A DNA stretch of 64,000 bases from Thermococcus sp. MV5 (GTDB lineage: Archaea > Methanobacteriota_B > Thermococci > Thermococcales > Thermococcaceae): assembly GCF_012027425.1 (NCBI RefSeq), contig NZ_SNUE01000001.1:62001-126000 (forward strand). Reading direction: 5' to 3'. A program made the position numbers and the translations under genes. The notes beneath the pieces are model-generated. The model did no database searches. It was not told the DNA's origin and worked only from the letters and a program-made list of their open reading frames with translations. Positions within the stretch are counted from its first letter, which is position 1; every line of letters starts with the position of its first letter. This document shows positions 59,262 to 61,100 of the stretch, in pieces.

Positions 59262-59297
59262 CTTCCTCCCTGCCCTAAAAAGCGGGGCTTTCAGAAG
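59258..59297 (-). mobile_element. IS200/IS605 right-end-like mini element, copy E
   Basis: 40 bp on the minus strand following TTAT (GTTAT at 59298-59302): CTTCT, GAAAGCCCCGC-TTTTTAG-GGCAGGG, terminus AGGAAGTCAG. Best-preserved hairpin after copy A. It provides the stop codon of the upstream secreted-protein gene. Confidence 0.65.
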
Positions 59298-59368
59298 ATA
59301 ACGATACTTCCTCTGGTCTCCCTAAAACCCAAATGAATCTAGGGTAAGTTCGTTGATTTCTCCATAAA

Positions 59369-59377
59369 GTTTATAAG
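59369..59377 (+). promoter_or_regulatory. TATA box of the his operon
   Basis: GTTTATAAG, centred about 26 bases before 59399. Transcription would start at about 59397-59401, only a few bases before the ribosome site of the His-rich leader ORF. Confidence 0.55.
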
Positions 59378-59410
59378 GCTTAAGAATCCTTTCCCTCGTA
59401 GGTGGGCAAT

Positions 59411-59515
59411 ATGAAAGTTTGGAATGAAAACAGTACGAAAAATTTTGCAAATGTCCAAGATAGAGAAGATGTATTTTCAGTAGTTTGTATTGTGAGCTAC
59501 TGCCATCATCATTGA
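59411..59515 (+). CDS. candidate his leader peptide ending in His-His-His
   Basis: 34 codons: MKVWNENSTKNFANVQDRED, then VFSVVCIVSYCHHH and TGA (59513-59515). GGTGGG lies 4 bases ahead of the ATG and the predicted mRNA start is about 12 bases upstream, so it is the first ORF on the his transcript. Three CAT codons directly before the stop, ahead of hisZ, recall bacterial his leader peptides. The codons lie in a loop closed by GAGCT/GGCTC (59494-59498 with 59517-59521). No strong U-tract terminator follows. Function is inferred. Confidence 0.55.
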   Translation: MKVWNENSTKNFANVQDREDVFSVVCIVSYCHHH

Positions 59516-59595
59516 CGGCTCTTCTATAATTGGGACTAACTTAGGTCTACTGTTGAAGTTGAAATTCATTTTAAAATTCACAGGAGGGGATTTTC

Positions 59596-60486
59596 TTGAA
59601 AAAAGACTTATTTTCCGAATCAGTTAGGTTAGCGTATATTGTAAAAAACCTAAGAAGAACCTTTGAGCTTTGGGGATATAAGGAAATATTCCTACCTAGT
59701 GTGGAAGAATATTCCCCTAATTTAAGGAAGGGCACAAAGTTCGCATATAACAATAAATTCTATATGTTCAAACCGGATCCAACCTCACAAATCCTAGCAA
59801 ATTTAAAAGAGAAAAGAGAGCTAAAGCTTTACTACATCCTTGAGGTTCTCAATGGAACCACAAAGGGAGAATGGCAAGCTGGAATTGAGTTCATTGGCGG
59901 AAATGATTTGATGGTACAGGTTGAAGGAATATTAGTTGCAATAACAGCATTAGAAAGTCTCGGCATAAACGAGTTCTATATTGATGTGGGCAGTTTGGAA
60001 GTGTGGAAAAGAGCCCTGAAGGGAATAGAAGAGTATAAACCCCAGATAATTACTGCATTAAGTAGACGGAACTTTGAAGAAATAGAAGGTCTCCCCATAC
60101 CTTCAGCGAAAAAGGAAGAACTTTGGAAGCTTTTCAATTTTAGAGGGAAAAAATGTGAATATGAAAAATTAAACAAGATAATTGAAGCAGTTGATGATAA
60201 GAGGGTCTTTGTGGATTTTGGAACTATTAGAATTCTTCCATATTACAGTGACATTATCTTCGAAGTATACTCACCAAAATTTGGAAAACCTATTGGAGGC
60301 GGGGGAGAATACGAGATTAAAGGCATGAAAGCATTTGGATTCGCTTTTGACTTAAAAGCCATTCTAAAGCTTTACGAAGGAGACCTAGAAAAAACTAGGA
60401 AAATTATTAGTGGGAACCTTAAAGAGGCCTATAACAAAGCAAAACAGCTTGTAAGACTTGGAATACCAGTGGAGGTGAGAAAATGA
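59596..60486 (+). CDS. hisZ: HisZ, ATP phosphoribosyltransferase regulatory subunit
   Basis: 296 residues; TTG start with GGAGGGG 6 bases upstream. Class II HisRS-like fold without tRNA-binding domain: [73 protein letters not shown]. It regulates the short-form HisG encoded immediately downstream, with a 4-base overlap (ATGA). Shorter than bacterial HisZ (about 390), as usual in archaea. Confidence 0.85.
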
Positions 60487-61100
60487 GGTTCGTTCTTCCA
60501 AAAGGTCGTCTTTTAACAGGCTCTGTGGAGATATTACAAAAAGCTGGTATAGAGGTAAGACTACCCCAAGGTCGCGAATTAATAACTAAAAATGGAGAAT
60601 ACAGCTTTTTACTTGCAAAATCCTTTGATGTCCCAGTTTATGTGGAGCATGGAATCGACATTGGCATAGCTGGAAGTGATATTGTAGAAGAGAGAAAAAG
60701 CGACGTGTTTGTTCCTCTTGAACTACCCTTTGGTAAATGTAGACTCAGCCTAGCTATCCCAAAGGAAAAAAATGTAAAAGTTGAGGAAATGGATGGATTT
60801 AGAATTGCTACCAAATACACTAACCTTACTAGAAAATTCTTTGATGAAAGAGGTATTGAAGTAGAGATAATAAAACTACATGGAAGCATTGAACTAGCTC
60901 CAAAAAGTGGAATAGCTGATGCCATAGTTGATATTGTTGAAACTGGAAATACCTTACTGGCGAATGGTCTAATTGAACTGGAAAAAATAATGGATATTTC
61001 AGCAGTTCTTATAGTAAATAGGATATCCCAAAAGACTAGATTTGAAGAGATTAATGACCTCATTTTAAAACTTAAAGGAGTTGTTGAAGATGGATTTTGA
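60483..61100 (+). CDS. hisG: ATP phosphoribosyltransferase catalytic subunit (short form)
   Basis: 205 residues, the HisGS length that needs His[78 protein letters not shown] (PRPP-binding). First step of histidine synthesis. Overlaps hisD start. Confidence 0.96.

Follow-up and report, generated by a model that had tools for sequence, protein, structure and literature searches.

That bacteria control genes through translated leader peptides is textbook knowledge. In the biosynthesis of histidine, his attenuators couple tandem His codons to terminators or, in some variants, to sequestration of a ribosome-binding site (RBS), and the portion of PMC9413887 available to us names such systems only for bacteria. 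For archaea, regulation by upstream ORFs (uORFs) is stated in general terms in the accessible part of the uORF4u paper (PMC10219788). A term search of a 2020 review of archaeal translation initiation (PMC7531240) gave no hit in the searched text for ‘leader peptide’, ‘attenuation’ or ‘riboswitch’, and the searched text of transcriptome papers on T. onnurineus and P. furiosus (PMC5316973, PMC6640164) gave none for ‘histidine’, ‘uORF’ or ‘attenuation’. Among the matches listed by our open-access literature search, none described an archaeal amino-acid leader peptide.

Here, we examine a short ORF ending in tandem His codons ahead of hisZ in Thermococcus sp. MV5, compare it across the family Thermococcaceae and weigh what it may do. 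The window analysed is a stretch of 64,000 nucleotides (contig NZ_SNUE01000001.1, positions 62,001 to 126,000, forward strand) from a genome of 1.98 Mb in 101 contigs. Judged by sequence comparison, the ORF probably encodes a leader peptide that senses charged tRNA-His. Support is good for the sensor half of this explanation but not for the output half. Thermococcaceae grow at about 80-100 C, and members of this family have working genetics; with a leader present throughout the family, ribosome stalling in archaea and the coupling of transcription to translation could be put to direct test, and one could see how control of this kind works near 80-100 C, where RNA hairpins are weak.

The his locus of the window

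The original prediction described, in this order, a TATA box, a GGTGGG motif, a 34-codon ORF closing with CAT CAT CAT TGA, and then hisZ and hisG; the coordinates of these features agree with ours to within a base (Table 1). The genes that follow hisG up to the window end are putatively hisD, hisB, hisH and hisA. The leader stop and the hisZ start are separated by 80 nt, and an alternative in-frame GTG start at 59402 lengthens the leader ORF but overlaps the Shine-Dalgarno (SD) sequence. Farther upstream, between the stop of the preceding gene and the his promoter, positions 59262-59292 carry CTTCCTCCCTGCCCTAAAAAGCGGGGCTTTC with an inverted repeat; it resembles an insertion-sequence end but has a single occurrence in the genome at up to 3 mismatches.

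Table 1. Features at the 5' end of the his operon, in window coordinates.
Feature	Position	Strand	Basis or remark
TATA-like box TTTATAAG, predicted his operon promoter	59370..59377	+	sequence; spacing to leader ATG common to 41/47 loci
Leader Shine-Dalgarno GGTGGG	59401..59406	+	sequence; SD-like match ahead of ATG in 44/47 loci
Leader ORF, 34 codons, ATG 59411, peptide MKVWNENSTKNFANVQDREDVFSVVCIVSYCHHH then stop	59411..59515	+	counterpart ORF in 47/47 loci
Conserved stretch preceding His codons, TGTGAGCTACTGC in window, GGTGAGCTACTGC in many loci; encodes V-S-Y-C	59491..59503	+	
Three tandem His codons CAT CAT CAT (CATCATCAT), putative sensor	59504..59512	+	2-4 tandem His codons in 47/47
Leader stop TGA	59513..59515	+	TGA in 46/47 loci, TAA in one
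Pyrimidine-rich CTCTTCT (TTCT core), directly 3' of His codons	59519..59525	+	candidate effector masked by stalled ribosome
hisZ Shine-Dalgarno GGAGGGG	59583..59589	+	complementary to CTCTTCT, G-U pairs counted
hisZ, first structural gene, TTG start	59596..60486	+	
hisG (ATP phosphoribosyltransferase)	60483..61100	+	

Conservation of the leader ORF in Thermococcaceae

hisG was found in 47 of 94 Thermococcaceae genomes. One of these (G088), whose contig begins inside hisG and holds no upstream DNA, was left out, and one genome (G091) without a hisG match was taken in for its hisZ start and upstream DNA, which gives a total of 47 loci. They cover all six genera of Thermococcaceae represented, and their sequences are related, not independent trials.

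Every one of these loci has an ORF with terminal tandem His codons upstream of hisZ. ORFs were picked by tandem CAY codons together with an ATG, and the open frame and the presence of His codons in 47/47 therefore share one selection; shuffled upstream regions subjected to the identical rule yielded such an ORF in a mean of 0.22 of 47 loci (maximum 2/47) and reverse complements in 0/47. Conservation of the ORF and its His codons alongside hisZ and the promoter had been set beforehand as a check able to refute the original prediction, and all 47 loci keep them. Moreover, such ORFs are rare elsewhere in the same DNA: across 400 kb of the 425-kb host contig, 576 SD-preceded ATG ORFs of 10-45 codons occur on the two strands, two of which have HH within 4 codons of the stop, and the one with HHH is the window leader. 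A core motif, GGTGANNTACNNCCATCAT, is present in 29 of the 94 genomes, at one site each and, by coordinates, ~60-110 nt ahead of hisZ; across the 94 genomes it has no match in the backwards control, nor in genomes that lack a hisG or hisZ match. Of the 47 loci, 18, including that of the window, have no match to the exact motif.

Tandem His codons number two in 23 loci, three in 23 and four in one. The stop follows the last of them directly in 34 loci, after 1-3 further codons in 12 and after 6 in one, with the leader ends HH, HHH, HHHH, HHLF, HHHLF, HHRLF, HHPF, HHI and, once, HHHCRLFYN preceding the stop. As the stop position shifts among these ends while the His codons stay, it is the His codons that persist. 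The most diverged leaders are those of G005, which reads MMPLTYRLHCHH up to its stop, and G009, which ends in MSLSERPMGIKVLLVMIFHHI with His codons CAC CAT; the G024 leader reads MVERSIKSRVLSMGASLLFKVTYCHHLF.

In a close relative of the window locus (L034, genome G083), the TGA after the His codons is replaced by TGC, extending the peptide to the HHHCRLFYN end. This loss of the leader stop is either an assembly error or a natural variant.

Coding character and elements around the His codons

The two ends of the leader differ in how they evolve. In the N-terminal part, frames +1 and +2 carry stops in 39/47 and 33/47 loci, and pN/pS is 0.82 in frame versus 0.55 and 0.67 in the other frames (57 pairs). 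An in-frame ratio of 0.82 means that the N-terminal peptide is not conserved and that the ratio gives no support for coding there; on it we also reject a conserved functional microprotein. By comparison among the loci, the N-terminal peptide drifts almost neutrally, and the end V-S-Y-(C/R/Y)-H-H(-H) is conserved. Change at the codons for Ser at -3 (pS 0.78, pN 0.12) and Tyr at -2 (pS 0.22, pN 0.009) is mostly synonymous, a coding-like signature adjoining the His codons; Val at -4 changes little in either respect (pS 0.05, pN 0.03), and Cys at -1 is opposite in direction (pS 0.10, pN 0.21; 295 pairs throughout). The loci without an SD-like match before the chosen ATG are L030, L031 and L057, and the window's leader SD agrees with the Thermococcus RBS consensus GGDGRD, as given in the available part of PMC4247193.

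Conservation of Val-Ser-Tyr at the amino-acid level would also suit a TnaC-like arrest, in which the nascent V-S-Y-C-H-H end, together with UGA, would sense free histidine or a product and not charged tRNA-His. The choice of stop points the same way, given that 46 of 47 leaders use TGA although, among long ORFs of the host contig, it closes 117 of 268. Against nascent-peptide arrest, the stop shifts relative to the His codons and several lineages alter the V-S-Y-C part (e.g. VSLHH, DSLHH), and we give this alternative a small chance.

The His codons themselves are strongly biased. Across the 47 loci the tandem codons comprise 115 CAT and 4 CAC, with CAT at each of the first two positions in 46/47, versus 14 CAT and 60 CAC in hisZ and hisG of the same loci (Fisher p 3e-31, indicative only, the sequences being related). 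In the AT-rich host contig CAT is commoner anyway (960 CAT versus 630 CAC), so the leader bias is meaningful only against the hisZ and hisG pool. It could stem from slower wobble decoding or from nucleotide-level constraint. Constraint of the latter kind, reaching codon third positions, is what an untranslated RNA or DNA element merely resembling an ORF would show, be it a tRNA-binding RNA, a riboswitch or a protein operator, and the N-terminal part without coding constraint would fit it as well. Such an element would leave unexplained the SD before the ATG in most loci, the placement of the promoter and the synonymous change at the Ser codon; furthermore, it would lie well downstream of the promoter, and neither an Rfam T-box in the window stretch searched nor more than a weak consensus structure was found (see below). 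We therefore consider it very improbable.

Two further elements flank the His codons. In 33/47 loci, GGTGA precedes the first His codon at a distance of exactly 8 nt, the window having TGTGA at this place; if GGTGA is an internal SD, a ribosome held by it would have that His codon in its A site. On the other side lies TTCT. Counted from where the first His codon starts, it begins 12 nt further on in 21 loci, 15 nt in 14, 18 nt in 7 and 9 nt in 5. By +18 it is thus present in 47/47 loci versus a mean of 4.8/47 for shuffled downstream sequence, and it is always in frame, be its position coding or past the stop.

The TTCT element admits more than one role. FttA/aCPSF1 is an archaeal termination factor, and in a Rho-like output TTCT would load it once the ribosome leaves, whereas a ribosome stalled at the His codons would hide TTCT and RNA polymerase would continue. 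This alternative shares its sensor with the explanation that we favour and differs in output only. The spacing of 9-18 nt from the first His codon in all 47 loci, also where TTCT is non-coding, is in keeping with it, and it needs no RNA hairpin, in line with the folding results below. However, L060, L062 and L064 have 24 nt from leader stop to hisZ start, leaving little room for termination before translation resumes. We know of no FttA loading motif, and an open-access literature search on FttA and polarity found no paper. Altogether, we regard termination through FttA as rather unlikely.

Promoter placement

The best TATA-like match lies 38-50 nt 5' of the leader ATG in 41 loci, compared with 10.9 on average and at most 20 in shuffled promoter regions. 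The six exceptions are L040, L060 and L061, together with L021, L023 and L066, where the script chose an internal ATG. By contrast with this fixed distance, the gap from leader stop to hisZ varies between 24 and 80 nt across the 47 loci, measured to the position aligned with the window hisZ start (at least 6 rows have their start codon 3 nt further). A fixed distance on one side and a variable one on the other suggest that the promoter is placed for the leader, and with TATA in this position a transcript start downstream of the leader ORF, the second condition named as able to refute the original prediction, is unlikely.

In archaea, the distance from TATA to transcription start is ~25 nt. Under that spacing, the predicted 5' UTR of the leader comes near the T. 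kodakarensis median of 16 nt, the figure given in the available part of PMC4247193.

A leader directly behind the predicted promoter would also be well placed for mRNA protection. Archaeal 5'-3' exonucleases exist, and a ribosome stalled near the 5' end could block one of them and stabilise the operon mRNA on starvation. The conserved TTCT after the His codons would find no explanation in this way, and protection of the message appears improbable.

RNA structure and the hisZ ribosome-binding site

The original prediction also proposed two pairings. A GAGCT/GGCTC stem closing a loop that holds the His codons is real in the window and kept in only 2/47 loci (G000, G080). A pairing of CTGT in the spacer with ACAG at the hisZ SD is likewise real in the window and is kept in 5/47 (G000, G080, G083, G076, G043); G080, G083 and G076, which all share it, are the three nearest relatives of G000. 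What stands of the earlier reading is that an archaeal his operon has a His-codon leader ORF at its 5' end, found in 47/47 loci; the hairpins that it proposed, confined to few loci, find no support.

Against dinucleotide-shuffled leaders, hisZ RBS accessibility has a mean z of -0.04 over the 47 loci, with no general sequestration, and the minimum free energy (MFE) has a mean z of 0.03. When combined over 17 lineages, the values are z +0.45 for accessibility and +0.75 for MFE at 37 C, and z +1.96 for accessibility at 80 C, i.e. the RBS is more accessible. Outliers in accessibility are G069 (z -2.6) and G024 (z -2.9), the only two with significant sequestration, and G060 (z +3.3). With the His codons masked, the RBS gains more than 0.2 in accessibility in 5/47 loci at 37 C and 0/47 at 80 C, and an upstream mask has this effect in 3/47. 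For 32 sequences RNAalifold gives -2.7 kcal/mol and 6 pairs, two of these pairs with a both-sided change, and for 15 sequences -0.6 kcal/mol and 5 pairs, none of these with such a change; the weak hairpin joins GGUG and CAUC, its inner pair being C-G in 21 sequences and U-A in 5. On these RNAalifold results a conserved RNA switch was rejected.

A further alternative is classical transcription attenuation of the bacterial type, with alternative hairpins and an intrinsic terminator. The leader design is the same as that of bacterial hisL, and a WHHHH leader followed, by eye, by a GC hairpin and a T run is present in a bacterium of the Thermotogaceae whose HisZ is related. No intrinsic terminator was found in the window, though, and a stem of at least 5 perfect pairs with T4 or longer occurs in 1/47 loci (G086), the longest T run being 2-5 across the 47. 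An Rfam search of positions 59300-59700 of the window returned only two sub-threshold snoRNA matches and no his-leader family or T-box. Attenuation in this classical form is extremely improbable for Thermococcaceae.

Direct pairing between the region of the His codons and the hisZ RBS is a separate matter. UUCU is able to pair with GGAG of the hisZ SD, and in nine loci of related Thermococcus (L021, L023-L026, L053, L056, L058, L063) 13 contiguous pairs join a stretch that begins at the second His codon and takes in the stop and TTCT to the hisZ SD, up to the first base of the start codon. RNAduplex predicts interrupted helices of 14-17 pairs, with z -1.8 to -3.6 versus shuffled tails, in three Thermococcus groups comprising 15 loci, namely the nine above, L037, L042, L046 and L047, and L066 and L067. 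Over all 47 loci the mean duplex z is -0.84, with values below -1 in 19/47, and a locus's own pair of tail and RBS is no better than swapped partners (z 0.09 and 0.17). Sequestration of the RBS as a general rule finds no support in the folding, masking and swap tests, and is retained as lineage-specific.

HisZ relatives and other operons

In a set of 115 genomes from the phylum, of which 21 are not Thermococcaceae, hisZ-level matches occur only within Thermococcaceae. Three genomes outside the family have weak hisZ matches (29-30% identity where listed, frames of ~500 aa), which are candidate histidyl-tRNA synthetases. We inspected 25 further loci with HisZ relatives for His leaders. The archaeal loci L078, L084, L085 and L088 show no tandem-His frame in 260 nt, and in L087 such a frame lies 226 nt upstream, apparently within a different gene. 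Tandem His in L097, L100, L102 and L108 lies in frames far from the ORF end. Bacterial loci L086, L089, L090 and L091 have His-rich ORFs before hisZ.

Several of these loci have features of their own. In the Thermotogaceae locus mentioned above (L091:2360-2500), the leader reads MNNRIFSTLKWHHHHSNIYKSAPPDVLSLL up to its stop, and with the structures behind it, it resembles a typical bacterial his attenuator. The Bipolaricaulota L086, L089 and L090 have short His-rich ORFs, e.g. one ending in TSNAHHHRGCLHHSPYLT and a stop, ~110-155 nt upstream of hisZ, which are possibly further His leaders; just past the first His codons, L086 and L089 carry an inverted repeat such as GGAGATG...CATCTCC. In the Thermoplasmata L078 and L088, which are without a His leader, a palindrome (TGTACAAAATTGTACA / TGTACAATTTTGTACA) sits ~15-55 nt upstream of hisZ as a putative regulator site, and hisZ is likely under another kind of control there. 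A short ORF ending in RQHY, with a single His codon, is found at a similar place upstream of hisZ in the DHVE2 archaeon L085. The HisZ of L085 falls within a group of Thermococcaceae sequences in the tree (96/95), and the ORF may be what is left of a leader that decayed once it had been transferred.

In this HisZ tree, Thermococcaceae, Thermoplasmata, DHVE2, Bipolaricaulota, Thermotogaceae and one record of Thermoproteota form a group separate from the remaining HisZ (100/100). Resolution inside this group is poor, and the direction of transfer is not settled by a tree of 29 rows. In other amino-acid operons, no conserved Trp-rich SD ORF was seen just before trpC in 15 loci with TrpC above the family cut-off, and the IlvC and DAHP synthase loci are operon-internal in the stretches examined and so uninformative on leaders.

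A proposed mechanism

We propose that this ORF encodes a leader peptide and that histidine attenuation in this archaeon is mediated by the ribosome. Having loaded at the SD of the leader itself, immediately past the promoter, a ribosome would traverse the freely drifting N-terminal part and arrive at two to four tandem His codons, nearly all of them CAT, where it would stall when charged tRNA-His is scarce. The stalled ribosome would then cover or border the TTCT element, 9-18 nt after the first His codon. With ample histidine, the ribosome would instead terminate 0-3 codons past the last His (6 in one relative); with the ribosome gone, TTCT and the His codons would be available for pairing with the purine-rich SD of hisZ, and this pairing would lower translation of hisZ and, with it, of the coupled operon. 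Comparison of the loci shows the ORF with its conservation and its His codons, the TTCT element and where the promoter is placed; the stalling, the control by histidine and its direction we infer. Masking of the hisZ RBS is the weakest step, which we put forward tentatively.

It is conceivable, if short of an even chance, that Thermococcaceae possess an amino-acid attenuator without a stable RNA switch, in which a ribosome at CAU codons masks a linear pyrimidine off-element. The ribosome would be held by low charged tRNA-His and perhaps also by the putative internal SD GGTGA and the nascent V-S-Y-C end. Such a design, if true, suits temperatures at which hairpins melt and, as far as the literature searched shows, would be without an archaeal precedent among amino-acid attenuators.

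Comparison with known systems

The arrangement shares parts with several described systems. As in the TnaC/Rho attenuation of tna, a conserved element that a stalled ribosome could mask lies just past the leader stop; unlike in tna, the factor would have to be a different, archaeal one, and the operon is biosynthetic, not degradative. Translational attenuators that sequester an RBS, such as those of erm/cat (for the class, see the portion of PMC9413887 cited above), likewise have a stalled ribosome beside a sequence able to pair with a downstream RBS, whereas in Thermococcaceae strong pairing is found in three Thermococcus groups and is not general, and own pairs do no better than swapped ones. 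Closer by gene content are the bacterial loci L091 (Thermotogaceae) and L086, L089 and L090 (Bipolaricaulota), where an ORF with a run of His precedes a hisZ that belongs to the same HisZ group; in contrast to the Thermococcaceae leader, L091 adds a GC hairpin and T run, and these leaders are, by eye, without VSYCHHH. Compared with hisL of enterobacteria, to which a sequence relation was neither sought nor seen, the leader has an archaeal host, promoter and RBS, two to four His codons at its very end, and no terminator or antiterminator hairpins that we could find, but it has the same plan: the his operon opens with a short ORF carrying tandem His codons, from which a readout of charged tRNA-His is to be expected.
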